64,000 nucleotides of DNA from an uncultured Nocardioides sp. (GTDB lineage: Bacteria; Actinomycetota; Actinomycetes; Propionibacteriales; Nocardioidaceae). Below are positions 25,464 to 38,125 of this stretch, piece after piece. The position numbers were made by a program, and so were the translations under genes. Location: contig NZ_CANKYS010000002.1 of the NCBI RefSeq assembly GCF_947488025.1, positions 310,001-374,000 of the forward strand. The letters are read 5' to 3'. Position 1 is the stretch's first letter, and each line of letters opens with the position of its first letter. The notes beneath the pieces are model-generated. The model saw only the letters and a program-made list of their open reading frames with translations, made no database searches and was not told the origin of the DNA.

Positions 25464-25730
25464 TCAGACGGCCGGCGGGGCCGGCGGGTCGGACTCGCTG
25501 GTGCGCTGCGTCGAGGCCTGGCGGCCCTGCGCGTCGGTCGTGGTGGCGGTGGTGGTGTGGCGCCGCTTGGTGTTCTGCTGGACCATCGTCAACACGAGCC
25601 AGAGCACGCCGGCGACGACGAGGATCCAGCCCAGCGTGATGACCTCGAGGGGACCCACCTGCTGCTCGTTGAAGGCGAGCGCCAGGACCAGTCCGATGAC
25701 GATGAGGCCGATCGGCCCTCCGTAACCCAT
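25464..25730 (-). CDS. DUF6458-like small membrane protein
   Basis: 88-aa protein with two membrane helices (about 5-20 and 32-52) and a hydrophilic Thr/Gln/Ser-rich tail ([15 protein letters not shown]...). [21 protein letters not shown] and [21 protein letters not shown] match the short actinobacterial family DUF6458. Function unknown. ATG 25730; divergent from the oxidoreductase gene. Confidence 0.75.
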
Positions 25731-25860
25731 GTCGTGCTCCGTTCTGTCGGGGATGCCGCCCGGCGACCGAGGCGGTCTGGACCGGGCGGGGCAGAGTCTG
25801 GCGCGTGACCGGTCCGATGTCATCCCCCCGCGGGGGGGGCGACGTGCGACGATCGCTCGC

Positions 25861-28011
25861 ATGGAGAAGCGCATCGGCGTCTGCAACCTCTGCGAGGCGA
25901 TCTGCGGCCTCGAGCTGACGATCGAGGGACGTGAGGTCGTCGGGGTGCGCGGCAACAAGGCCGATCCCCTCTCCCGCGGGCACGTCTGCCCCAAGGGGGT
26001 CGCGATCGCCGACGTGTACGCCGACCCCGACCGGCTGCGTCGACCCGTGCGCCGCGTCGGCGAGGGCGCAGACGCCCGGTGGGAGGAGATCGGCTGGGAC
26101 GAGGCGTTCGACCTCGTCGCCGACCACCTCGCGCGCGTGATCAACGAGCACGGTGACGACGCGCTCGGCGTCTACCTCGGCAACCCCAACGCCCACAGCC
26201 TGGGGTCGATGACGCACGGCACCGCGATGTTCAAGTCGTTCCGCACCAGGAACCGCTACTCCGCCACCTCGGTCGACCAGCTCCCCCACCAGCTCGTCGC
26301 CCACCTCGTCTTCGGCCACCAGCTCTTCCTGCCGATCCCCGACATCGACCGCACCTCGTGGTTCCTGGTGGTCGGTGGCAACCCGATGGCCTCCAACGGC
26401 TCCCTGATGACGGTCCCCGACTTCCCGCAGCGGGTGCGCGACCTGCGGGCGCGCGGCGGCAGGATGGTCGTCCTCGACCCGCGCCGCACCGAGACCGCGA
26501 AGGTCGCCGACGAGCACCACTTCGTCCGGCCGGGCACCGACGCGTGGGTGCTGCTCGCGATGCTGCACGTCCTCACCACCGAGGCCTCCCCCGACGCCGC
26601 CCCCGACACCGCCCCCGACACCGCGCCCACCGTGCCGTCGTACGTCGACGGGCTCGACACGGTCGTCGCGCTCGTCGCCGACTTCACCCCCGAGCGCGCC
26701 GAGGCGATGAGCGGGCTGCCGGCCGCGGAGGTCCGCCGGCTCGCGCGCGAGCTGGCGGCCGCCGAGTCCGGCGTCGTCTACAGCCGGATCGGGGTGTCCG
26801 CCGGCCCGTGGGGCACGGTGTGCCAGTGGGCGGTCACCTGCCTCAACGTCATCACCGGCAACCTCGACCGGCCCGGCGGGGCCATGTTCACCACGCCGGC
26901 CATCGACGCCGTCGGCACCGGTCTCATCGGGCGCGGGCACCACGACGCATGGCGCTCGCGGGTCCGCGGGCTCCCGGAGACCGCGGGCGAGCTGCCGGTG
27001 GCGGCGCTGCGCGAGGAGATCGAGACGCCCGGCGAGGGCCAGGTGCGCGCCCTGCTCACGGTGGCGGGCAACCCGGTCCTGTCGACACCCGACGGCGCGA
27101 GGCTCGACGCCGCGCTGCCCGGCCTCGACTTCATGGCGGCGGTGGACATCTACGTCAACGAGACCACCCGGCACGCCGACGTGATCCTGCCGCCGACCAC
27201 CGCGCTCGAGCGCGACCACTACGACCTGGTCTTCCACCTCCTGGCCGTGCGCAACACGGCCCGGTTCACCCCCGCGGTGTTCGAGAAGGAGGCCGACCAG
27301 CGCCACGACTGGCAGATCTTCCGCGAGATCACCCTCCGCACGGCCGCTCGTCTGGAGCGCAAGGCCCCGCTCAAGAAGCGGCTCGTCCAGCGCGCCCGGC
27401 TGACCGCCAGCCCGACCTTCCTGATCGGGCAGCTGCTGCGCCGGGGGTCGAGCGGGGTGACGCTCACCAAGCTGCGGGCCCGACCCGCCGGCATCGACCT
27501 CGGCCCGCTGCGGGGCGGCCAGCTGCCGGGCCGTCTCCCGGCGCGCAGCAAGCGCGTGGACCTGGCGCCCGCGCTCGTGGTGGCGGACGTCGCGAGGCTC
27601 GCCGCCGTACCCGTTCCCACCGGTGACGAGCTGGTCCTGATCGGGCGTCGCCACCAGCGCGACTGCAACTCATGGATGCACAACTCCGAGCGGCTGACGC
27701 GCGGCCGGCCGCGCCACCAGCTGTTGATGAACCCCGACGACCTGGCGCGGCGCGCCATCGCCGACGGCTCCCGGGTGCGCGTGACGTCGCGCGTCGGGTC
27801 GGTCGAGGTCGAGGTGGCCGCGTCCGAGGACCTGATGCCGGGCGTGGTGTCCCTCCCCCACGGCTACGGGCACGCGGCGGAGGGCGTCCTGATGTCACGC
27901 AGCCGCGAGGTCCCGGGCGTCTCGGTCAACGACCTCACCGACCCCGAGCTGCTCGACGTGTCGGGCAACGCCGCGCTCAACGGCGTACCGGTCGCGGTCA
28001 CCGCCTGCTGA
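25861..28011 (+). CDS. Molybdopterin-dependent oxidoreductase (formate dehydrogenase/nitrate reductase type)
   Basis: 716-aa catalytic subunit. The N-terminal [4Fe-4S] site is seen as Cys8, Cys11, Cys15 and Cys43 (CNLCEAIC... HVCPKG), followed by the molybdopterin domain (WDEAFDLVADHLARV, YLGNPNAHS, VVGGNPMASN, VVLDPRRTET) and the C-terminal dinucleotide-binding domain with RDCNSWMHNSERLTRGR and PHGYGHAAEGV. No partner subunit, chaperone or molybdenum transporter adjoins it, so the electron partner and substrate are unknown. ATG 25861. A (PDTA)n-like acidic insert lies near 240-255. It ends in a nested inverted repeat. Confidence 0.9.
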   Translation: MEKRIGVCNLCEAICGLELTIEGREVVGVRGNKADPLSRGHVCPKGVAIADVYADPDRLRRPVRRVGEGADARWEEIGWDEAFDLVADHLARVINEHGDDALGVYLGNPNAHSLGSMTHGTAMFKSFRTRNRYSATSVDQLPHQLVAHLVFGHQLFLPIPDIDRTSWFLVVGGNPMASNGSLMTVPDFPQRVRDLRARGGRMVVLDPRRTETAKVADEHHFVRPGTDAWVLLAMLHVLTTEASPDAAPDTAPDTAPTVPSYVDGLDTVVALVADFTPERAEAMSGLPAAEVRRLARELAAAESGVVYSRIGVSAGPWGTVCQWAVTCLNVITGNLDRPGGAMFTTPAIDAVGTGLIGRGHHDAWRSRVRGLPETAGELPVAALREEIETPGEGQVRALLTVAGNPVLSTPDGARLDAALPGLDFMAAVDIYVNETTRHADVILPPTTALERDHYDLVFHLLAVRNTARFTPAVFEKEADQRHDWQIFREITLRTAARLERKAPLKKRLVQRARLTASPTFLIGQLLRRGSSGVTLTKLRARPAGIDLGPLRGGQLPGRLPARSKRVDLAPALVVADVARLAAVPVPTGDELVLIGRRHQRDCNSWMHNSERLTRGRPRHQLLMNPDDLARRAIADGSRVRVTSRVGSVEVEVAASEDLMPGVVSLPHGYGHAAEGVLMSRSREVPGVSVNDLTDPELLDVSGNAALNGVPVAVTAC

Positions 28012-28129: not shown

Positions 28130-28564
28130 TCAGGCGCTGACGTCGCCGAGCACGGCGAGGACGTCGTCGGGGGTCTGTGCGGCGTCGAGCGCAGCGATGC
28201 TGGCGTCGTCGGTGAAGGCACCGGCCAGCGCCTGCAGCACGGTCAGGTGGTCGTCTCCCGCGCCGGCGATCCCGACGACGTAGCGGGCCGGGCTGCCCTT
28301 CCAGTCGATCGGCTCGTCGTAGCGCACGAACGAGATCGCGGTGTGGCGGATCAGCGTCTTCGCCTCGTTGGTGCCGTGCGGGATGGCGAGGCCGTTGCCC
28401 ATGAACGTGGACACCGAGGTCTCCCGCTCGTGCATGGCGTCGACGTAGGCCTCGTCGACCGCGCCGCTCGCGACCAGCAGCCGTCCGGCCTCGGTGATCG
28501 CTGCGTCACGGTCCGTGGCCTGGCCACCGAGCACGATGGCCTCCCTGCTCAGTACGTCACTCAT
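28130..28564 (-). CDS. mtlF: PTS mannitol-type EIIA
   Basis: 144-aa PTS EIIA of the mannitol/fructose class, which takes phosphate from HPr and passes it to EIIB. The active histidine is in GNGLAIPHGTNEAK (His63). It is downstream of the IICB gene by 158 bp; that gap holds a 14-bp stem that could lower expression of this gene relative to the permease. HPr and Enzyme I are encoded in the same locus. Confidence 0.9.
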   Translation of the reverse strand: MSDVLSREAIVLGGQATDRDAAITEAGRLLVASGAVDEAYVDAMHERETSVSTFMGNGLAIPHGTNEAKTLIRHTAISFVRYDEPIDWKGSPARYVVGIAGAGDDHLTVLQALAGAFTDDASIAALDAAQTPDDVLAVLGDVSA

Positions 28565-28722: not shown

Positions 28723-30240
28723 TCAGGTCGGGTTGTTGTCGCGGACCATCGCCACGATCTCGTCGTAGCGGGGACTGGCCATGAAGTTGTCGACCGAGAC
28801 GTGCTCGGCGGACGGTGTCTTCTGGCGTGCCCGGTCGGTGAGGTCCTGGTGGCTGACCACGAGGTCGTAGCTGTCGTCGAGGTTGGCGATGGCCTTGTTG
28901 ACGACCGTGACCTCCGGGTGTCCGGCGTCCTGGATCTTCTTGCGGAGCACGGAGGCTCCCATCGCCGAGGACCCCATCCCCGCGTCGCAGGCGAAGACGA
29001 TGTTGCGGATCTCGCGGGTGGCGGTGGCGGTGGCGGTGGCAGCGGCGGCCGCGCCACCGGTCAGGGTGCTGGCGACCGACGACTTCTTGCCCTTGTTGGC
29101 CTCCATCTGGGCGGTCGCGGCGCTCAGGTCACCCTCGTCCTCGCTCTTGTCCATCTTCAGCAGCAACGCAGCCACGACGAGGGTGACGGCAGCGGCACCG
29201 AAGACGCCGAGCGTGACCCCGAGGTAGTCACCCCTCGCCGTCTGGGCGTAGACGGCGAAGATCGAGCCCGGGGCCGCCGGTGCGCGGAGACCCACGTCGA
29301 AGGCCACGTTGATCGCGACACCGGTCATGCCGCCGGCGACCATGGCGAGGATCAGGCGCGGCTTCATCAGCACGTAGGGGAAGTAGATCTCGTGGATGCC
29401 GCCGAAGAACTGGATGATCGCGGCACCCGGGGCGGTCGCCCTCGGCACACCGCGGCCGAAGAACGTGTAGGCGAGCAGCAGGCCGAGGCCCGGGCCGGGG
29501 TTCGCCTCGAGCAGGAACAGCACGGACTTGCCGGACTCGGCGGCCTCGGCGAGACCCAGTGGCGTGAGCACGCCGTGGTTGATCGCGTTGTTGAGGAAGA
29601 AGACCTTCGCCGGCTCGATGACGAGCGAGGTCAGCGGCAGCAGGTTGTTGTCGACGAGCCACTCGACCGCGTTGCCGAGGACCTCCATGACCTCGTTGAC
29701 GATGGGCGCGACGACCCAGAACCCGACGATCGCCATCAGGAAGGCCACGATGCCGGCCGAGAACATGTTGACGAGCATCTCGAAGCCGACCTTGATCTTG
29801 CCGTCCCAGAGCGCGTCGACCCGCTTGATCGCGTAGGCCGACAGGGGGCCGAGGATCATCGCGCCGATGAACATGTGCACCTGACCGAGCGGGGCGGCGT
29901 CCGCGGGCAGGTCGGCGTTGAAGTTCGCCACCAGCAGGTCCGACCCGGCGATGGCACCCATCACCGCGAAGCCACCGACCACGGCACCGCGGTCGCCGTG
30001 GACCATGCGGCCGCCTGTTGCGGCGATGAGGATCGGCAGGGCGTAGTGGATGATCGGGCCGACCATCGTGGCCAGGTCGGCGTTGGGCAGCCAGCCGACG
30101 TCGATGACCAGGGCGGTGAGGAGTCCCCACGCGATCAGTGCCGGGATGTTCGGCATGATCATGTTGGAGAGGAACGTGCCGAACTTCTGAATGCGGACCC
30201 GCGCACCGGAACCGGTCGGGGCCGTGAATGTCGTGGCCAT
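28723..30240 (-). CDS. mtlA: PTS mannitol-type EIICB permease
   Basis: 505-aa membrane transporter importing and phosphorylating a hexitol. The EIIC part (about 15-365, around eight helices) contains FGGIHEIYFPYVLMKPRLIL; after an Ala/Thr-rich linker the EIIB domain begins NIVFACDAGMGSSAMGAS with the phosphocysteine Cys418. The EIIA domain is a separate gene (mtlF). ATG 30240 has GGAGG 8 nt upstream. The linker is encoded by a GGTGGC-type microsatellite. A CRP-like site lies 28 nt upstream of the start. Mannitol specificity is by family; a related hexitol is possible. Confidence 0.92.
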   Translation of the reverse strand: MATTFTAPTGSGARVRIQKFGTFLSNMIMPNIPALIAWGLLTALVIDVGWLPNADLATMVGPIIHYALPILIAATGGRMVHGDRGAVVGGFAVMGAIAGSDLLVANFNADLPADAAPLGQVHMFIGAMILGPLSAYAIKRVDALWDGKIKVGFEMLVNMFSAGIVAFLMAIVGFWVVAPIVNEVMEVLGNAVEWLVDNNLLPLTSLVIEPAKVFFLNNAINHGVLTPLGLAEAAESGKSVLFLLEANPGPGLGLLLAYTFFGRGVPRATAPGAAIIQFFGGIHEIYFPYVLMKPRLILAMVAGGMTGVAINVAFDVGLRAPAAPGSIFAVYAQTARGDYLGVTLGVFGAAAVTLVVAALLLKMDKSEDEGDLSAATAQMEANKGKKSSVASTLTGGAAAAATATATATREIRNIVFACDAGMGSSAMGASVLRKKIQDAGHPEVTVVNKAIANLDDSYDLVVSHQDLTDRARQKTPSAEHVSVDNFMASPRYDEIVAMVRDNNPT

Positions 30241-30283: not shown

Positions 30284-30327
30284 TGATGCCGTGATTAAAC
30301 CGCACGTTCGGGCATGTTGCCAAGCAT

Positions 30328-30348
30328 TCGGGCACGATTGGTGCCCGA
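30328..30348 (-). promoter_or_regulatory. Inverted repeat (operator or terminator) between dehydrogenase and mtlA
   Basis: TCGGGCAC-N5-GTGCCCGA, a perfect 8-bp dyad, with a further TTCGGGCATG half-site at 30307-30316. It may be a local regulator's operator for mtlA or a terminator of the dehydrogenase gene. Confidence 0.45.
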
Positions 30349-30379
30349 CCGTGTGGTTTTTACCCAGCGGGCCCGCGAC

Positions 30380-32116
30380 TCAGCCGCTCAGCTGACTGTC
30401 GAACAGCGCCTTCTCCACCTCGCCGTTCCACGTGCCGCCGGGTCCGAGCTTCGCGGCGACGTCCGGCAGCTCCTCCCTCAGCTCGTCGAGCCCCATCAGG
30501 GGGAGGTCGTGGATCTGGGGAAAGATCAGGACCTTGCCGGAGTAGCTTCCGTCGATCAGCGCCTGGAGGCCGTCCTTGGCCGCCCGCATGCCTCCGACGG
30601 CGCCGACGATGGAGCCCGGCGAGAGGTCGCCCCGGTTGGCCAGGTCCACCACCTGCTGCTGGTCGTGGATCGTCAGTCCCGACGTCCCGGTGTACTGGGC
30701 GTTGTCCAGGTAGACCGCGCTCAGGTTCAGCGGTGCCAGCGTGCCGTTGGGGACACCGGCGAAGAAGACCAGCATGCCGTCGGCGTTCATCACGGTGTCG
30801 GCCTCGGCCATCACGTCTGCGATGGGGACGCTGACCACCACGTCGTCGGCCCCCTGGTCGTCGGTGATCCGCATGACGAAGTCGTGGAGGGACTCTTCCG
30901 CGGTCTGGGAGTTGAAGGTGAGCAGCTCGCAGTCGTTGCTCTCCGCCAGGTGGGCCAGACGGTCCTCGAGGCTCTTCAGGCGTTCGTCGCTCACCTCGGT
31001 GGCGACGATCGTGCGGGGACCGTCGGGCTGCTGGATGGCCCGCTGGAGGTGCATCAGTCCCATGGGGCCGCCGGCGCCCACGAAGACGGTGGTGCCCTGC
31101 GGACGCAGGTCACAGCGGTTGCGCGCCTCTCCGTAGGAGGAGGCGATGTCCGGACCCCGGCCACCGAGGTAGGCGGTGTAGTCGTAGTGCAGACGGCCCA
31201 CGTCGGTGTCCACCAGGCCGTCCAGGGCGGTCTCGCCGACCATGTTGAGGGTGCCCCGCCGGGCGATGCGCTGTGCCACGGCTCCCACCGTCGCCGCCGA
31301 ACGGGGATCGAGCATGACGATGTCGTCGAAGCCGGCGCCGACGGTCAGCTCGTCCGCCAGCGCCTGGAAGTCATCGACACCGATGCCGTTGCGTACGACC
31401 GTGGTGGCGGAGGTGCGCTCCACGAGCTCGGCCACCGAGGCCGGCACGTCGGTCATCACGATGGTGGCCGGAGCATCCAGGCCCGAGGAGAAGAGGTAGT
31501 CGCGCTCGTCGCCGGGACGGCCGATGATCCACATGGTCCCGCCGACCTTCGGCTCGAGGCGGCGACGCTGGGTATAGGCGGCCATCACGCAACCCCAGGG
31601 CTCCAGCGTGGAGGCCTCGGCGTACCCCATCGTGTCGGGGAGGGGCAGCAGGCATGCACCGTCGTCGGTGTCGAGCATCTCCGAACCCATGAGGTGGTAC
31701 TGGATCAGACCGCCGGGGATGGTGTAGCCGTAGGCCGTGCTCTTCCCGTCCTGGTAGATGTCGGGCTGCACGGCCAGCCGCTGGCCGGCGTGGTAGCGGT
31801 CGGCGAGGTTGTCGCCGACCTCGATGACAGTGAGGCTCACCTCGTGCCCCAGCCGGGTGGGCTCCTTCGACAGGTCGCGGTCGTAGAGCTTGGGGTGGCT
31901 GCCGCCCTGGCGCATGATCTTCACGTCGGAGAAGCAGAGGCCCACGCTGTCGATGCGGACGAGCATGTGGTCGGCATCGGGCTCGGGGACGGGAAGCAGC
32001 TCGGGCTGGCCGTCCTTGCCCATGCTCTCCTCGCCCGCGCCGTAGAGGTTCCAGGCCCAGGAGCGCTCCGGCAGGTCGAGATCGGCCGCGCGGTAGCGGT
32101 CGTACGGTGATGTCAT
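30380..32116 (-). CDS. Large zinc-type alcohol dehydrogenase-like protein in the PTS locus
   Basis: 578 aa, far longer than the usual 340-400 aa of medium-chain dehydrogenases. The N-terminal GroES-like domain has VGLCFSDVKIMRQGG and LGHEVSLTVIEVGDNL (about 70-125). Two Rossmann-like stretches follow: GTMWIIGRPGDERDYLF (about 207) and GTTVFVGAGGPMGLMHLQRA (about 350). The second region includes GADDVVVSVP and MLVFFAGVP. Placement between Enzyme I and mtlA suggests it oxidises the hexitol phosphate delivered by the permease, in place of MtlD, which is absent here. That function is inferred. ATG 32116 has GGAGGAAG upstream. Confidence 0.75.
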   Translation of the reverse strand: MTSPYDRYRAADLDLPERSWAWNLYGAGEESMGKDGQPELLPVPEPDADHMLVRIDSVGLCFSDVKIMRQGGSHPKLYDRDLSKEPTRLGHEVSLTVIEVGDNLADRYHAGQRLAVQPDIYQDGKSTAYGYTIPGGLIQYHLMGSEMLDTDDGACLLPLPDTMGYAEASTLEPWGCVMAAYTQRRRLEPKVGGTMWIIGRPGDERDYLFSSGLDAPATIVMTDVPASVAELVERTSATTVVRNGIGVDDFQALADELTVGAGFDDIVMLDPRSAATVGAVAQRIARRGTLNMVGETALDGLVDTDVGRLHYDYTAYLGGRGPDIASSYGEARNRCDLRPQGTTVFVGAGGPMGLMHLQRAIQQPDGPRTIVATEVSDERLKSLEDRLAHLAESNDCELLTFNSQTAEESLHDFVMRITDDQGADDVVVSVPIADVMAEADTVMNADGMLVFFAGVPNGTLAPLNLSAVYLDNAQYTGTSGLTIHDQQQVVDLANRGDLSPGSIVGAVGGMRAAKDGLQALIDGSYSGKVLIFPQIHDLPLMGLDELREELPDVAAKLGPGGTWNGEVEKALFDSQLSG

Positions 32117-32171: not shown

Positions 32172-33863
32172 TCAGTGCCCGAGCAGCTCGCGGACCGCGG
32201 CGCGGGCGGCCATCGGGTCGGGTGCGCCGAGGGCGGCCTCGGCCGCGGCCTCGCAGGTCTCGAAGCTGACCTTGCCGAGCTGGGCGCCGACAGGGCGTAC
32301 GGCGCGGGCGGCCATCGAGAGCGAGGAGATCCCCATCCCGATGAGCGCCGTGGCGAGCAGCGGGTCGGCGGCCGCCTCGCCGCAGACACCGACGGGCTTG
32401 CCGGCCTCGGTGCCGGCGTGGGCGGTGATCGCGATCAGCTGGAGCACGGCCGGCTGCCAGGGGTCGGTGAGGTGCGCGAGGTCGGTGGCCATGCGGTCGG
32501 CGGCCATGGCGTACTGGGTGAGGTCGTTGGTGCCGATGGACAGGAAGTCCACCACCTCGAGCATCCGGTGCGCGAGCAGCGCCGCGCTCGGGATCTCGAC
32601 CATCACCCCGGCCTTCAACCCGCGCTCGCGGACCTTGGCGGCGAAGTCCGCCGCCTCGGCGACGGTGGCGACCATCGGCGCCATCACCCAGGTCTCGGTG
32701 CCGGTGCGCTCGGCCGCGGCGGCGATGCCGTCGAGCTGGCGGTCCATCAGGGCCGGGTTGCCGAAGCTGAGCCGCAGGCCGCGCACACCCAGGGCGGGGT
32801 TCTCCTCGCCCTCCTGCGTCGCGAAGGCGATCGGCTTGTCCGATCCCGCGTCGAGGGTGCGGACGACGACGTAGCGGCCGTCGGAGTAGGGAGAGAGGAC
32901 CTCGGCGTAGATGTCGGCCTGCTCCTCGACGCTCGGCTCGTCCTTGCGGTTGAGGAAGCACAGCTCGGTGCGGAACAGGCCCACGCCCTGCACGGGCTCG
33001 CCACCCGCGGAGGCGGCGGAAGCACCGTCGGCGACGTTGGCGAGCAGCTTCACCGGCATCCCGTCGGAGGTCGCGGCGGGCCCGCTCCAGCTGGCGAGCT
33101 CCTCGCGCACGCGGCGGCTCTCCTCGACGCGCGAGCGTGCAGCATCCGGATCGGTGCCCTGCTCGATGGTGCCGGCCTCGCCGTCGACGACGACGAACGT
33201 GCCGGCCGGCAGCTCCATGACACCGGCCGCGCCGACGACGCACGGGATGCCGAGCTGGCGGGCGATGATGGCGGTGTGGCTGGTGGCGCCGCCGCGCTCG
33301 GTGACCAGGGCGGTGACCAGCTCGGGGTCGAGACCGGAGGTGTCACTGGGCGCGAGGTCCTCGGCGACCAGGATCGACGGCTCGCTCGGGGTGGGGACGC
33401 CGGGGGCCGGCTCGCCCACGAGGTGGGCGACCACGCGCCGCTCGATGTCGCGCAGGTCGGTGACCCGCTCGGCCATCAGGCCGCCCATGTTGGTGAAGAT
33501 GGTGACGAACTGCTCGACGGCACCCTGAACCGCGGCGACGGGCCCCTGCCCGGCCTGCAGGTTCTTCGCGACGCCGGAGCGCAGGCCCTTGTCCTTCGCC
33601 AGGCCGGCGCTCGCGGTGAGCACCTCGGCCGCAGCACCCTGTGCGGACGCTGCCTTGCTGGAGAAGGTCTCCGCGACGACGGCCACCGCGTCGTCGTACG
33701 CCGCCAGCGCGGCGTCGGCGTCGGGGAAGTCGCCGTCGCCGAAGCGCGCGATCGCGTCCGGCGACACCTCGCCGTGCACGTGGAGGACCGGGCCGGCGGC
33801 GACGCCCGGCACCACCGGGGTCCCGCTGAGGGTGTTCGCGGGCGACTGCGCGGATGTGGTCAT
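32172..33863 (-). CDS. ptsI: PTS Enzyme I (phosphoenolpyruvate-protein phosphotransferase)
   Basis: 563-aa general PTS enzyme that autophosphorylates from PEP and phosphorylates HPr. The phosphohistidine is in GGATSHTAIIARQLG (His196). The PEP-binding barrel carries GVGLFRTELCFL, MVEIPSAALLA, FLSIGTNDLTQYAMAADR and the catalytic Cys in PVGVCGEAAADP. ATG 33863 lies exactly 6 nt after TACGGT, so the mRNA is probably leaderless; the frame is open far upstream but without similarity. It diverges from the DeoR gene across 103 bp that contain repeated CAACACAT boxes. Confidence 0.95.
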   Translation of the reverse strand: MTTSAQSPANTLSGTPVVPGVAAGPVLHVHGEVSPDAIARFGDGDFPDADAALAAYDDAVAVVAETFSSKAASAQGAAAEVLTASAGLAKDKGLRSGVAKNLQAGQGPVAAVQGAVEQFVTIFTNMGGLMAERVTDLRDIERRVVAHLVGEPAPGVPTPSEPSILVAEDLAPSDTSGLDPELVTALVTERGGATSHTAIIARQLGIPCVVGAAGVMELPAGTFVVVDGEAGTIEQGTDPDAARSRVEESRRVREELASWSGPAATSDGMPVKLLANVADGASAASAGGEPVQGVGLFRTELCFLNRKDEPSVEEQADIYAEVLSPYSDGRYVVVRTLDAGSDKPIAFATQEGEENPALGVRGLRLSFGNPALMDRQLDGIAAAAERTGTETWVMAPMVATVAEAADFAAKVRERGLKAGVMVEIPSAALLAHRMLEVVDFLSIGTNDLTQYAMAADRMATDLAHLTDPWQPAVLQLIAITAHAGTEAGKPVGVCGEAAADPLLATALIGMGISSLSMAARAVRPVGAQLGKVSFETCEAAAEAALGAPDPMAARAAVRELLGH

Positions 33864-33869
33864 GGACAC

Positions 33870-33899
33870 ACCGTAAGACATCGCGTGGTTGACAAGCAA
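33870..33899 (-). promoter_or_regulatory. ptsI promoter (leaderless)
   Basis: Minus strand: TTGCTT (33899-33894), an 18-bp spacer, TACGGT (33875-33870), then 6 nt to ATG 33863. The -35 overlaps a CAACACAT box. Confidence 0.55.
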
Positions 33900-33917
33900 C
33901 ACATTCGGGACTAAAAC
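33889..33917 (+). promoter_or_regulatory. deoR-fruK-fruA promoter
   Basis: TTGACA (33889-33894), a 17-bp spacer, then TAAAAC (33912-33917), the most sigma70-like promoter in the window. It overlaps the divergent ptsI promoter. Confidence 0.65.
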
Positions 33918-33924
33918 AACACAT
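33897..33924 (+). promoter_or_regulatory. Paired CAACACAT operator boxes
   Basis: Direct repeats CAACACAT at 33897-33904 and 33917-33924, 20 bp apart (about two helical turns), covering the spacer and -10 of the deoR promoter and the -35 of ptsI. Likely sites for the adjacent DeoR-family regulator, by position. Confidence 0.55.
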
Positions 33925-33966
33925 ACACAGATCACCCGGCGACGCCCGTGGAGGAGGACCGATCCG

Positions 33967-34734
33967 ATGTACGCGGAAGAGCGCCAGCAGGCGATGGCCC
34001 ACCTGATCAGTCGGCGCGGCCGGCTGTCGGTGGTCCAGCTGTCCGAGCAGTTCGAGGTCACCACCGAGACCGTGCGCCGCGACCTGTCCACGCTGGACCG
34101 GATGGGGCTGGTCCGCCGCGTCCACGGTGGCGCGGTGCCCGCCGGTTCGCTCACCGTCATCGAATCAGGCATCGGGGAGCGCGACCAGTCCAACACGCAG
34201 GCCAAGGAGGCCATCGCCAATGCCGCCGTCGCCCTGCTGCCACCGCCGGACTCGGTCGTCGTGATCGACGCGGGCACCACCACCGCGCGCTTCGCCGCCG
34301 CGCTCCCCCGCGACCACCGGCTCGTCGTCATCACGCACGCCGTGCCCGTCGCCACCCGCCTGGCCGGCCTGCCGCAGATCGAGCTCCACCTGCTGCCTGG
34401 CAAGGTCCGACCCACCACCCACGCCGCGGTCGGCGCGGAGACGGTCGCCGCCCTGGCGGACCTGCGGGCCGACGTCGCCTTCGTCGCCACCAACGGCCTC
34501 ACCGTCGGGCACGGACTCACCACCCCCGACAGCGACGAGGCGGCCAGCAAGCGCGCGATGATCGCCTGCGCCCGCAAGACGGTGGTGCTCGCCGACTCCA
34601 CCAAGATCGGCGTGGAGACGGCCGTGCGCTTCGCGACACTCGACAGCCTCGACGTGCTGGTCACCGACAGCGACGTGGAGCCGGCCGACCGACGCGCCCT
34701 CGAGGGCGCCGGGATCGAGGTGGTGGTCGCATGA
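33967..34734 (+). CDS. DeoR-family transcriptional regulator of the PTS locus
   Basis: 255-aa repressor. The N-terminal helix-turn-helix is RLSVVQLSEQFEVTTETVRRDLSTLDRMGLVRRVHGGAV (about 18-56). The C-terminal DeoRC sugar-phosphate sensor domain contains VVIDAGTTTARFAAAL and VLADSTKIGVETAVRF. ATG 33967 has GGAGGAGG upstream. It is first in an operon with fruK and fruA (both ATGA overlaps) and divergent from ptsI. The likely ligand is fructose-1-phosphate or a related sugar phosphate (inferred from context). Confidence 0.92.
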   Translation: MYAEERQQAMAHLISRRGRLSVVQLSEQFEVTTETVRRDLSTLDRMGLVRRVHGGAVPAGSLTVIESGIGERDQSNTQAKEAIANAAVALLPPPDSVVVIDAGTTTARFAAALPRDHRLVVITHAVPVATRLAGLPQIELHLLPGKVRPTTHAAVGAETVAALADLRADVAFVATNGLTVGHGLTTPDSDEAASKRAMIACARKTVVLADSTKIGVETAVRFATLDSLDVLVTDSDVEPADRRALEGAGIEVVVA

Positions 34735-35696
34735 TCCTGACCCTGACCCCCAACCCCAGCATCGACCGCACGGTCGCCCTCGACGGCGAGCTGTCCCGCG
34801 GCCAGGTGCACCGGGTGGCGTCGGTGACCTCGCAGGCGGGCGGCAAGGGCGTCAACATCTCCCGCGCGGCCGTCAGCGCCGACATCCCCAGCATCGCCGT
34901 CGTACCCGCCGCCAAGGACGACGCCTTCGTCATCGAGCTGCTCGGCGCGGGCATCGACTGCCGGCCGGTGCGCCCGGCCGGCGACGTCCGCGTCAACCTC
35001 ACCATCACCGAGCCCGACGGCACCACCACCAAGCTCAACTCCCCCGGTGCCGAGGTGCTCCCCCTCCACCTCGAGCTGATGGCCCAGGCCGTGCTGGTCC
35101 GTGCCTCCAGCGCCGACTGGACGGTCCTCGCCGGCTCCCTGCCCGCAGGGGCCCCGGCCGGCTTCTACGCCGAGCTCGTACGACGACTGCGCGAGGTGGG
35201 CGGTCGCGTGGCCGTCGACACCAGCGACGCCCCGCTCCAGGCGCTCGTCGACGCCCTGCCGCACTCGGCTCCCGACCTGATGAAGCCCAACGGCGAGGAG
35301 CTCGCCTCCTTCACCGGCGGCGACGCCGACGAGCTGGAGTCCGACCCCCGGGCGACGGCGGCGGCCGCCCGCCAGCTCATCGAGCGCGGCGTGGGCGCCG
35401 TGCTGGCCACCCTCGGCGGCAACGGTGCCGTGCTCGTGACGCCCGAGGGCGCCTGGCACGCGACCCCGCCCCCCACCACAGTCGTGAGCACCGTCGGTGC
35501 GGGCGACTCCAGCCTCTTCGGCTACCTGCTCGGCGACATCCGGGGCCTCCCTGCCCCGGAGCGCCTGGCACTGGCCGTCGCCTACGGCAGCGCCGCCGCA
35601 GGTCTCCCCGGCACCACCATCCCCCAGCCGTCCCAGCTCCGCACGGAGCTGGTCGGCGTCACCGCCCTGACCCCCTCACTGGGAGGCACAGCATGA
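34731..35696 (+). CDS. fruK: 1-phosphofructokinase
   Basis: 321-aa PfkB-family kinase converting fructose-1-phosphate to fructose-1,6-bisphosphate. It starts MILTLTPNPSIDRTV, the FruK hallmark, has AGGKGVNISRA (substrate) and the catalytic STVGAGDSSLFGY (Asp259). ATG 34731 overlaps the regulator's stop, and its own stop overlaps fruA, giving the classical regulator-fruK-fruA operon. Confidence 0.94.
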   Translation: MILTLTPNPSIDRTVALDGELSRGQVHRVASVTSQAGGKGVNISRAAVSADIPSIAVVPAAKDDAFVIELLGAGIDCRPVRPAGDVRVNLTITEPDGTTTKLNSPGAEVLPLHLELMAQAVLVRASSADWTVLAGSLPAGAPAGFYAELVRRLREVGGRVAVDTSDAPLQALVDALPHSAPDLMKPNGEELASFTGGDADELESDPRATAAAARQLIERGVGAVLATLGGNGAVLVTPEGAWHATPPPTTVVSTVGAGDSSLFGYLLGDIRGLPAPERLALAVAYGSAAAGLPGTTIPQPSQLRTELVGVTALTPSLGGTA

Positions 35697-37834
35697 CCGC
35701 ACTGATCACCACCGACCTCGTCCGCCTCGGCGCGGACTGGGGCCCGGACAAGCACGACGTCATCCGCGCCCTTGCCGGCGTCGTCGACGACGCCGGCCGG
35801 GCCACCGACAAGGACCAGCTCGTGGAGGACGCGTTCGCGCGCGAGTCCACCTCGGCGACCGGGCTGCCCGGTGGCATCGCGATCCCCCACTGCCGGACCG
35901 AGGGGGTCGAGGTCCCGACGCTCGCCTTCGCCCGGCTCGACCCGCCCGTCGACTTCGGCGCCAAGGACGGCCCCGCCGACCTGGCGTTCCTGATCGCCGC
36001 ACCCGCCGGGGGCGACGCCGACCACCTCACCATCCTCACCAAGCTGGCCCGTGCACTGGTCAAGCCCGCCTTCACCGACGCACTGCGATCGGCGGAGTCG
36101 ATCGAGGAGGTCGTCGATGTCGTCGCCCACGAGCTGGGCGAGCCGGCACCGGCGGCGAAGGCAGCCGCCCCGGCGTCGGGCGCGCCCTCCGGCGCGGCCG
36201 TTCCGGGCGGCGGGGAGACCACCGCGCCCGGCGAGGCCCCGAGCACCGCTGCTCCTGCCGCGACGGCCACCGCAGCTCCGGCCGCAGCGACGTCCCTCGT
36301 CGCGGTCACCGCCTGCCCGACCGGCATCGCCCACACCTACATGGCAGCCGAGGCGCTCGAGGCCGCGGCCGAGCGAGCCGGGGTCGACCTCCAGGTCGAG
36401 ACCCAGGGCTCCGTGGGTGCGAAGCCGCTGCCGCACGACACGATCGCGCGCGCGGGCGCGGTGATCTTCGCCGTCGACGTCGGCGTCCGCGACCGCGGCC
36501 GGTTCGCCGGCAAGCCGATGGTGAGCTCGAGCGTGAAGCGCCCGATCGACGACGCCGACGCGATGATCGCGGAGGCCCTGCGCTACGCCGCCGATCCCGC
36601 GAGCGCGCCTCGCGTGGAGGGCGAGGCCTCGGGCGGCGACGGGGGCGGCGACGGGGCCGCGGAGTCATGGGGTGGTCGCGTCCGGCGGGTCCTGATGACC
36701 GGCGTGTCCTACATGATCCCCTTCGTGGCCGCGGGCGGTCTGCTCATCGCGCTCAGCTTTCTGCTCGGCGGCTACGAGATCGTCGGCCCCTACGGCGACA
36801 TCGCGGTGAACTACGGGATCTTCAACCTCCCTGACCCCGAGGAGCTCGGACTCGAGCACGCGCTGTTCAACTCCGGGCTGATGGCCTACCTGGGCGCGCT
36901 CTTCTTCATCATCGGCAAGACGGCCTTCGCGCTGTTCCTCCCCGCGTTGGCGGGCTACATCGCCTACGCCATCGCCGACCGCCCCGGCATCGCGCCGGGC
37001 TTCGTCCTGGGCGGGCTGTCCGCCAACCTCTTCAACGTGCAGACCTCCGACGGTGTCGCCTACCCGGCCACCGGGTTCATCGGCGCGATGATCGGTGGCA
37101 CCCTGGCCGGCATCGCGGCGCACTGGATCGCGAGCTGGAAGGTGCCGACCTGGGCCCGCGGCCTGATGCCCGTCCTGGTGATCCCGCTGTTCGCATCGGT
37201 GCTGGCCGGCCTGGCGATGCTCATCGTGCTCGGCAGGCCGATCTCCTGGCTCATGGAGCAGCTCACCGAGGGGCTCAACTCGATGTCGGGAAGCAGCGCG
37301 ATCCTGCTCGGGGTGGTCCTGGGCCTGATGATGGCCTTCGACATGGGCGGTCCGCTCAACAAGGTCGCCTACACCTTCGCCGCCGTCGGTGTCGGCGGTG
37401 CGTCGCTGGCCAGCGACGCACCCGAGCTCCAGATCATGGCCGCGGTCATGCTGGCCGGCATGGTCCCGCCGATCGCCCTCGCCCTGGCCACCGTCGTACG
37501 CCCCGGACTGTTCAACGTCCCCGAGCGCGAGAACGGCAAGGCCGGCTGGCTCCTGGGTCTGTCGTTCATCACCGAGGGCGCCATCCCCTTCGCCGCGGCC
37601 GACCCGCTGCGCGTCATCCCGGGCATCATGGCGGGCAGCGCCGTCACGGGCGGGCTGTCGATGGCGATGGAGGTCGGGGTGCGCGCACCGCACGGAGGGA
37701 TCTTCGTGCTGTTCGCCGTCGAGAACGTCCTGGGCTACCTGATCGCCCTGGTCGCCGGTGTCATCGTCGGTGCCATCGCCGTCATCGCCCTCAAGTCGAT
37801 GGGCTCCAGCGACGCCGACGTCGCGACCGTCTGA
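35693..37834 (+). CDS. fruA: PTS fructose-type EIIABC
   Basis: 713-aa fused transporter. Order: EIIA (about 1-150; His66 in GGIAIPHCRTEG), an Ala/Pro-rich linker (155-198), EIIB (about 200-305; phosphocysteine Cys208 in AVTACPTGIAHTYMAAEAL), a Gly/Asp linker, then EIIC (about 325-705, with around nine helices and LMMAFDMGGPLNKVAYTF). It imports fructose as fructose-1-phosphate, the substrate of FruK. HPr is encoded 48 bp downstream. Confidence 0.95.
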   Translation: MTALITTDLVRLGADWGPDKHDVIRALAGVVDDAGRATDKDQLVEDAFARESTSATGLPGGIAIPHCRTEGVEVPTLAFARLDPPVDFGAKDGPADLAFLIAAPAGGDADHLTILTKLARALVKPAFTDALRSAESIEEVVDVVAHELGEPAPAAKAAAPASGAPSGAAVPGGGETTAPGEAPSTAAPAATATAAPAAATSLVAVTACPTGIAHTYMAAEALEAAAERAGVDLQVETQGSVGAKPLPHDTIARAGAVIFAVDVGVRDRGRFAGKPMVSSSVKRPIDDADAMIAEALRYAADPASAPRVEGEASGGDGGGDGAAESWGGRVRRVLMTGVSYMIPFVAAGGLLIALSFLLGGYEIVGPYGDIAVNYGIFNLPDPEELGLEHALFNSGLMAYLGALFFIIGKTAFALFLPALAGYIAYAIADRPGIAPGFVLGGLSANLFNVQTSDGVAYPATGFIGAMIGGTLAGIAAHWIASWKVPTWARGLMPVLVIPLFASVLAGLAMLIVLGRPISWLMEQLTEGLNSMSGSSAILLGVVLGLMMAFDMGGPLNKVAYTFAAVGVGGASLASDAPELQIMAAVMLAGMVPPIALALATVVRPGLFNVPERENGKAGWLLGLSFITEGAIPFAAADPLRVIPGIMAGSAVTGGLSMAMEVGVRAPHGGIFVLFAVENVLGYLIALVAGVIVGAIAVIALKSMGSSDADVATV

Positions 37835-37882: not shown

Positions 37883-38125
37883 ATGCCCAGCAAGTCAGTC
37901 GTCGTCGGTTCCGCCGTCGGCCTCCACGCCCGTCCCGCCGCGCTCATCGCCGAGAAGGCCGCCGAGCTCGGCTCGGAGGTGACGATCAACGGCGTGGACG
38001 CCAGCTCCTCGCTGATGATCATGACCCTCGGCGCCGGCAACGGCGACACGGTCGAGGTCGCCGGCGACGACCAGGCCGCCGTCGACACCATCGCCGCCCT
38101 GGTCGAGCAGGACCTCGACGCGTGA
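37883..38125 (+). CDS. ptsH: PTS phosphocarrier protein HPr
   Basis: 80-aa HPr; the phosphohistidine is His15 in AVGLHARPAALI, followed by NGVDASSSLMIMTLGAGNGDTVEV. AAGGAGAA precedes ATG 37883. With ptsI 4 kb away this locus can supply the whole phosphorelay. No HPr kinase is nearby. Confidence 0.95.
   Translation: MPSKSVVVGSAVGLHARPAALIAEKAAELGSEVTINGVDASSSLMIMTLGAGNGDTVEVAGDDQAAVDTIAALVEQDLDA

Follow-up and report, generated by a model that had tools for sequence, protein, structure and literature searches.

A zinc-dependent dehydrogenase with two predicted coenzyme domains seems to serve mannitol breakdown in some soil and sediment bacteria

Mannitol imported by the phosphotransferase system (PTS) enters glycolysis, in the textbook route, through MtlD (mannitol-1-phosphate 5-dehydrogenase, PF08125), which is encoded beside the mannitol PTS and yields fructose-6-phosphate (F6P). 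Other PTS-linked dehydrogenases are zinc-dependent members of the medium-chain dehydrogenase/reductases (MDRs): SorE of Klebsiella and Serratia interconverts L-sorbose-1-phosphate and D-glucitol-6-phosphate by acting next to the phosphate-bearing carbon, and YggP of Escherichia coli, a member of the SorE clade that is annotated as ‘putative’, is encoded next to mannitol-type EIICB and EIIA (cmtAB). Here we analyse a gene at positions 30,380–32,116 (minus strand; ATG at 32,116, stop at 30,380–30,382) of a 64,000-nucleotide stretch of an uncultured Nocardioides sp. genome (contig NZ_CANKYS010000002.1, positions 310,001–374,000; hereafter ‘the window’), which encodes a 578-amino-acid (aa) zinc MDR. 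Like MtlD, this enzyme stands beside a mannitol PTS and has the same presumed substrate, but MtlD belongs to an unrelated family and is not a zinc MDR. With SorE it shares the same zinc ligands, a C-terminal extension, sister-clade position and PTS linkage, whereas SorE is of about 410 aa, has one coenzyme domain, shows 26–30% identity and is linked to a mannose-type PTS and a short-chain dehydrogenase/reductase (SDR). YggP shares the mannitol-type PTS neighbours but has 425 aa and one coenzyme domain. The norm for SorE/YggP is about 410–440 aa with a single coenzyme domain, which the enzyme in the window exceeds by an extra domain.

The gene order in the window is ptsI, dehydrogenase, EIICB, EIIA, which bears out the placement between Enzyme I and the mannitol permease given in an earlier note on this DNA. 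Upstream, ptsI (32,172–33,863, minus strand) encodes an Enzyme I of 563 aa from its likely ATG, named from sequence and from a 34% match to the Enzyme I of a desulfobacterotal locus, L024 (TIGR01417 over cut-off). Downstream follow a mannitol-type EIICB (28,723–30,240, minus strand; NCBIfam NF011663, 622 bits, cut-off 589) and an EIIA of the mannitol/fructose family (28,130–28,564, minus strand). The earlier note had also found no mannitol-1-phosphate dehydrogenase, and this holds beyond the window: PF08125 had no match in the whole 4.49-Mb, 45-contig genome (estimated 100% complete), so that the absence is genome-wide and not merely local, while the control for this search gave matches in 7 of 14 genomes. 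A hidden MtlD elsewhere was thus considered and none was found in the window's genome, where the dehydrogenase gene itself was found in only one copy.

The same association recurs across the family. Among 244 Nocardioidaceae genomes, 29 carry the dehydrogenase gene (all of one genus) and 83 carry a mannitol EIIC; each of the 29 genes lies 179–547 bases from an EIIC match, and the chance of all 29 carrier genomes having an EIIC would be 6 × 10−16 if kinship is ignored. PF08125 is absent from 14 of the 16 carrier genomes searched, and the two exceptions have it next to a paralogue, in a separate cluster; no MtlD match was found in 66 loci with family members. The co-occurrence with EIICB-type PTS genes lacking mtlD that the earlier note had proposed as a check is present. 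That the gene and PF08125 might exclude each other was also considered as evidence, but the difference is weak (2 of 29 carriers versus 51 of 215 other genomes, p 0.05) and vanishes among EIIC-bearing genomes (2 of 29 versus 5 of 54, p 1.0), and we do not rely on it. We consider it highly probable that this zinc MDR replaces MtlD in the mannitol PTS operon.

Linkage to the PTS extends to distant carriers. EIIC is present in 25 of 25 Nocardioides-type loci, including the window's own (L001), and fruK in 21 of these 25, L001 being too short to show it; EIIC is also present in 23 of the 30 other loci, and the seven without it have less than 2.7 kb upstream of the gene. The L024 cluster reads, in order, LacI-type regulator, EIICB, fused EIIA-HPr-EI, dehydrogenase, kinase, class II fructose-bisphosphate aldolase, glyceraldehyde-3-phosphate dehydrogenase (GAPDH) and enolase, of which the regulator, GAPDH and enolase are assigned from sequence and the aldolase is identified as fructose-bisphosphate type at 575 bits (cut-off 511). 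The Enzyme I fused to EIIA and HPr (L024:7329-9962, Desulfobacterota) is 877 aa long.

The oversized dehydrogenase is a real member of the MDRs by domain content, expected zinc ligands and fold. Pfam places ADH_N at residues 48–141 (37.6 bits, cut-off 23.5) and the best stretch of ADH_zinc_N at residues 369–493 (36.1 bits, cut-off 31.8), separated by an extra stretch that ordinary MDRs do not have, and PF08125 (Mannitol_dh_C) is not among its Pfam matches. On the minus strand, residues 1–190 (31,547–32,116) form the N-terminal portion of the catalytic domain (ADH_N), which holds every zinc ligand expected; residues 191–336 (31,109–31,546) a first, degenerate coenzyme domain whose glycine motif is lost (IGRPGDER); residues 337–481 (30,674–31,108) a second coenzyme domain with GAGGPMG at 347–353; and residues 482–535 (30,512–30,673) the C-terminal part of the catalytic domain, the listed MDR chains aligning to residues 533–539. 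The remaining residues 536–578 with the stop codon (30,380–30,511) extend past the alignment end of the listed solved MDR chains and make up the C-terminal extension common to SorE/YggP, the alignment with which reaches residue 572.

Conservation was read from an alignment of 29 rows, comprising 28 of 54 contig-scan loci at at least 56% identity and the window protein. C61, H91, E92 and E172, which we take to be the catalytic zinc ligands after sorbitol dehydrogenase, are invariant in all 29 rows; residues 93–140, presumably where a structural-zinc loop would sit, contain no cysteine. The first coenzyme domain has no GxGxxG motif in any row, with IGRPGDER variants instead, and the second has GAGGPMG in 28 rows and GAAGPMG in one. 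Invariant residues of the first domain are R308, H310, Y311 and R332–R334, candidates for contacts with the phosphate or at the subunit interface. Residue 374, after strand 2 of the second domain, is E in 25 rows and D in 4; an acidic residue after the second strand usually denotes NAD rather than NADP. The two glycine-rich, nucleotide-like stretches of the earlier note thus correspond to two Rossmann-like coenzyme domains, the first of which lacks the glycine motif, and two working NAD sites are unlikely because this first copy is degenerate.

Profile–profile alignment of residues 184–336 with residues 336–500 matched 136 columns at 21% identity and a probability of 95–96% (E values of 3 × 10−8 and 2 × 10−9 depending on direction, from one comparison made with shallow profiles). 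When the two domains were aligned locally as single sequences, the score was not significant (56.5, versus 39.4 ± 7.0 for shuffles, the highest of 500 reaching 70.5), and the claim of duplication therefore rests on profiles and structure. For the full-length protein, the AlphaFold model (mean predicted local distance difference test score (pLDDT) 90.1, predicted template modelling score 0.89) matches the MDR structure 6ie0 with Z 27.3 over 329 aligned residues at a root-mean-square deviation (rmsd) of 2.7. Residues 186–336 modelled alone (pLDDT 84.5) best match the MDR coenzyme domain 5yln, with Z 10.5 over 125 residues at rmsd 3.2. Structure prediction, as the earlier note had suggested, thus bears out a domain duplication alongside the invariant ligands, and by profiles and models the enzyme is predicted to hold two MDR coenzyme domains in tandem; a fusion of two dehydrogenases is ruled out by its single catalytic domain. 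Searches of the PDB gave ordinary MDR chains and no chain described with two coenzyme domains among the matches listed, which does not speak against such chains; the BFVD structure search gave no useful match, and literature searches that covered few subscription journals showed nothing on this enzyme among the matches listed.

A contig scan returned 65 loci, with best-segment identities of 85–92% in Nocardioides and other Nocardioidaceae-like contigs, 68–79% in Desulfobacterota, 58–68% in Chloroflexota and 56% in an Acidimicrobiales metagenome-assembled genome (MAG). Conservation at 56–79% in three other bacterial groups rules out a chance or artefact frame. A search of 79 genomes from the same family as L024 gave five matches, three already in the set and one consisting of the C-terminal half alone. 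In locus L114, a 453-aa frame joins the start of EIICB to the second half of the dehydrogenase, through either a deletion or an assembly collapse. The best plasmid match, at 38%, is on a Deinococcus plasmid (L072:7992-9686). Its neighbours include an SDR and an FGGY kinase but no gene annotated as PTS, and the family would appear to include a branch that is not tied to the PTS. The two observations that the earlier note had named as telling against its proposal, a separate mtlD co-regulated with mtlA and homologues unlinked to PTS genes, are not seen among close relatives, the second applying to this distant one as annotated.

The next relatives are SorE and YggP, which lack the first coenzyme domain and have 409–425 aa. 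Profiles for other MDRs scored far below their cut-offs, GatD (NCBIfam NF007642) at 17.6 bits versus 550 and the scyllo-inosose 3-dehydrogenase IolM (NF041097) at 63.1 versus 450. In a maximum-likelihood MDR tree of 34 rows, 11 of them from the 29-row alignment, in which the program flagged long branches, the 14 double-domain rows form one clade (98/97) that is sister to SorE/YggP (100/99), and both stand apart from GatD, Tdh, LgoD and others (100/100). The window's dehydrogenase falls in this sister clade and not inside SorE/YggP. The two Nocardioidaceae rows group with Desulfobacterota rows, first L022 (100/98) and next L024 (100/99), a pattern suggestive of gene transfer.

These relationships bear on the reaction. 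EIICB and EIIA would import mannitol as D-mannitol-1-phosphate, which, turned end for end, is D-glucitol-6-phosphate at carbons 3–6 and differs at the far carbon 2 alone; a SorE-type reaction on it would give D-fructose-1-phosphate (F1P), the substrate of the kinase beside the gene. The zinc MDR, with NAD(H) bound by the second coenzyme domain, would thus oxidize the hydroxyl on the carbon that neighbours the phosphate-bearing one, 1-phosphofructokinase would convert F1P to fructose-1,6-bisphosphate (FBP), and aldolase would split FBP; the first coenzyme domain, as a tandem duplicate now without a dinucleotide motif of its own, has probably become a structural or substrate-pocket element. From sequence comparison and analogy we lean towards this route, with the gene standing in for MtlD. 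In Haloarcula hispanica, mannitol carbon likewise is reported to pass through F1P and 1-phosphofructokinase, differing in its ABC-type uptake, a dehydrogenase of unphosphorylated mannitol and a ketohexokinase (PMC11519228).

The earlier note had proposed that a hexitol phosphate is oxidized to F6P by a distinct type of enzyme. The type is distinct, an EIIC-linked MDR and not a PF08125 protein; the product is where we differ, F1P fitting better because of the SorE chemistry and because the partner kinase is mostly 1-phosphofructokinase-like. Oxidation of mannitol-1-phosphate to F6P, as by MtlD, with the adjoining PfkB kinase as a dedicated 6-phosphofructokinase, is a possibility to which we give appreciably less weight than to F1P, itself only modestly favoured. 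GatD, another MDR, does act on the far carbon, and the mannitol-type EIIC and the aldolase linkage would suit either product. The sister group, however, is SorE and not GatD, PfkA is already present in all 16 carriers searched, and an MtlD-like enzyme coexists with a paralogue of the dehydrogenase in the clusters described below.

In 27 of 30 loci from outside Nocardioides, the gene is followed within 620 bases by a PfkB kinase gene in the same orientation; the three loci without one end 0, 46 and 320 bases after the gene, which leaves 27 of 27 loci with room. On the 1-phosphofructokinase model TIGR03828 (cut-off 292), four of the six adjoining kinases scored pass (L024 336, L042 307, L033 304 and L044 302), as do the FruK controls of E. 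coli (337) and Deinococcus (319), whereas E. coli Pfk-2 (261) and LacC (275 and 271) fail. The L024 kinase has the F1P kinase 2jg5 as its nearest solved relative (184 bits, with LacC at 164 and Pfk-2 at 119). At two positions that we take to be specificity sites, the kinases carry FruK/LacC-type rather than Pfk-2-type residues (23 of 23 at Pfk-2 column 40 and 22 of 23 at column 27), which speaks only against Pfk-2 because FruK and LacC share most of these residues. In a tree of 39 rows, comprising 23 of the 27 cluster kinases and reference kinases, the L050 kinase joins the FruK of Nocardioides (100/99), and the remaining 22 make up a separate clade (92/94). In the window, fruK (34,734–35,696, plus strand; TIGR03168, 282 bits, over cut-off) adjoins a fructose PTS EIIABC (35,693–37,834, plus strand; TIGR01427 over cut-off). 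Fructose PTS IIC was not seen in 9 of 11 non-Nocardioides carrier genomes, including the L024 chromosome, which is titled complete, although these absences are soft because several of the genomes are MAGs of unstated completeness.

That softness is one of several points that weigh against F1P as the product. Two of the six scored kinases (L052 and L050, 277 each) and the window's fruK (278) fall under the TIGR03828 cut-off and close to the LacC controls (271–275), and the two adjoining kinases below it would suit a dedicated 6-phosphofructokinase. The kinase tree does not place the 22-member Desulfobacterota/Chloroflexota clade with any one of FruK, LacC and Pfk-2, and the Nocardioides fruK says little because it sits with the fructose PTS there. 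Among Nocardioidaceae loci with other dehydrogenases beside EIIC, 35 of 54 MDR-type and 9 of 9 YggP-type loci have no kinase nearby, and the kinases at the other 19 MDR-type loci are the fruK of a fructose operon or its like; in the phylum-wide set described below, 8 of the 13 kinase-bearing MDR/YggP loci lie in genomes with a fructose PTS. We know of no activity for any double-domain member. Finally, the description of Desulfosediminicola flagellatus IMCC35005, the source of L024, records that mannitol is not used as an electron donor (PMC8497536).

Comparison with EIIC loci that lack the gene extends the pattern to other dehydrogenases. We read all such Nocardioidaceae loci, 57 in 54 non-carrier genomes and 6 second loci of carriers, and the dehydrogenase beside EIIC in these 63 was a Tdh-like ordinary MDR in 54, YggP-like in 9 and MtlD in none. 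In several of the MDR loci, for example L098, L155 and L163, the ptsI/deoR/fruK surroundings are retained and the MDR gene sits between ptsI and EIIC, the same slot as in the window; an in-place exchange would include an inversion, since in these loci the MDR lies on the strand opposite to ptsI and EIIC. Unlike the window's enzyme, the Tdh-like MDRs have about 350–375 aa and one coenzyme domain, belong to another MDR branch and often lie on the opposite strand. Six Nocardioides carriers (L104 and L200–L204) possess one further mannitol-type EIICB, which adjoins a YggP-like gene as in E. coli cmtAB-yggP; the L104 protein is 56% identical to E. coli YggP, and those of L200–L204 are 73–92% identical to that of L104. 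In E. coli (L075:5218-9331), yggP follows cmtBA and precedes yggF, encoding fructose-1,6-bisphosphatase.

Across 396 Actinomycetota genomes searched, 38 had an EIIC and 35 loci were read, leaving the window's own genome, G347 (a fragment) and G388 (E 1.5 × 10−4). By dehydrogenase, these loci comprise 13 with MtlD, 11 with a Tdh-like MDR, 7 with YggP/SorE and 4 with none recognized. A FruK-like kinase (threshold 90 bits) is present in 0 of 13, 6 of 11, 7 of 7 and 0 of 4, respectively, where L121 (MDR-type, 69 bits, cut by the locus edge) and L119 (MtlD-type, 62 bits) count as lacking one; YggP relatives thus have a PfkB kinase beside the gene in all seven loci. The contrast between MDR/YggP-type (13 of 18) and MtlD loci (0 of 13) gives a Fisher p of 4 × 10−5 with kinship ignored and the four loci lacking a recognized dehydrogenase in neither arm. 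Families f18 and f33 hold both dehydrogenase types, and both follow the kinase rule. Seven of the 13 kinases were scored on TIGR03828, and L134, L136, L139, L144, L128 and L122 pass 292 while L124 fails; fructose IIC is absent from 5 of the 13 genomes. The four loci with a mannitol-type EIIC in which MtlD, MDR, YggP and the double-domain family were all unrecognized are L135, L140, L141 and L150.

Published phenotypes touch on the substrate. Nocardioides astragali HH06 is reported to use mannitol, sorbitol and fructose but none of sorbose, tagatose and xylitol (PMC5999194); the genome of strain CGMCC 4.7327 (L005), which we assume to be the same strain, is a carrier without PF08125. D. flagellatus produces acid from mannitol and sorbitol (PMC8497536), and Pontimonas salivibrio, which has a PTS operon, grows on mannitol and not on fructose (PMC6106888), a hint only. 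The response of N. astragali and D. flagellatus to sorbitol leaves some room for another PTS-borne polyol phosphate as the substrate, for instance that of D-arabitol or D-glucitol, given that a mannitol-type EIIC may carry other polyols, and the window's EIICB scores 451.9 bits on mtlA (TIGR00851), under the 468.4 cut-off. The polyol partner of SorE is, moreover, glucitol-6-phosphate. We nonetheless regard this substrate as unlikely: a pentitol would need no phosphofructokinase, the L024 aldolase is of the fructose-bisphosphate type, and N. astragali does not use sorbose.

The enzyme might also run in reverse in the cell, from ketose phosphate to polyol phosphate, for polyol synthesis or sorbose use. 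SorE is a reductase, and two Ornatilinea-type clusters (L067:6609-10053 and L068:6177-9615) pair a 576-aa double-domain paralogue with a fructose-type PTS, an MtlD-family protein (in L067 249 bits, under the 356 cut-off) and a DhnA-type aldolase. We consider this direction very improbable for the window's enzyme, since its orthologues stand in operons for uptake and glycolysis, with GAPDH and enolase beside the gene in L024, and MtlD is not seen in orthologue loci. The Ornatilinea-type clusters themselves possibly encode a ketose-1-phosphate pathway: conversion of ketose-1-phosphate through hexitol phosphate to F6P would need both dehydrogenases, while two F6P-making enzymes would be redundant, a point that we count in favour of F1P. 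By analogy, this pairing parallels SorE and the SDR of the sor operon.

Elsewhere in the window, a DeoR-type regulator divergent from ptsI (33,889–34,734, likely ATG at 33,967, plus strand) precedes fruK, and HPr (37,883–38,125, plus strand) follows the fructose PTS, both named from sequence. A 598-aa plus-strand frame antisense to the dehydrogenase (30,314–32,110) is regarded as a shadow frame of high-GC DNA, given that conservation is seen for the minus-strand protein. At 25,729–28,011, a 760-aa frame resembles a molybdopterin oxidoreductase from its sequence.

Whether these loci together represent a second PTS mannitol route, in which MDR-type dehydrogenases (double-domain, YggP and Tdh-like) give F1P and 1-phosphofructokinase then FBP, by-passing MtlD and 6-phosphofructokinase, with the duplicated first coenzyme domain serving the active site or dimer interface, is in our judgement evenly balanced. 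If true, mannitol imported by the PTS could enter glycolysis at a point other than the textbook one, and many ‘orphan’ mannitol PTS operons that lack mtlD, perhaps E. coli cmtAB-yggP among them, would gain a testable function. Such a route would also account for 1-phosphofructokinases in genomes without a fructose PTS and make FruK unsafe as a marker of fructose use. For the enzyme family, it would represent a coenzyme domain duplicated within one enzyme fold, one of the two copies having ceased to bind the cofactor.

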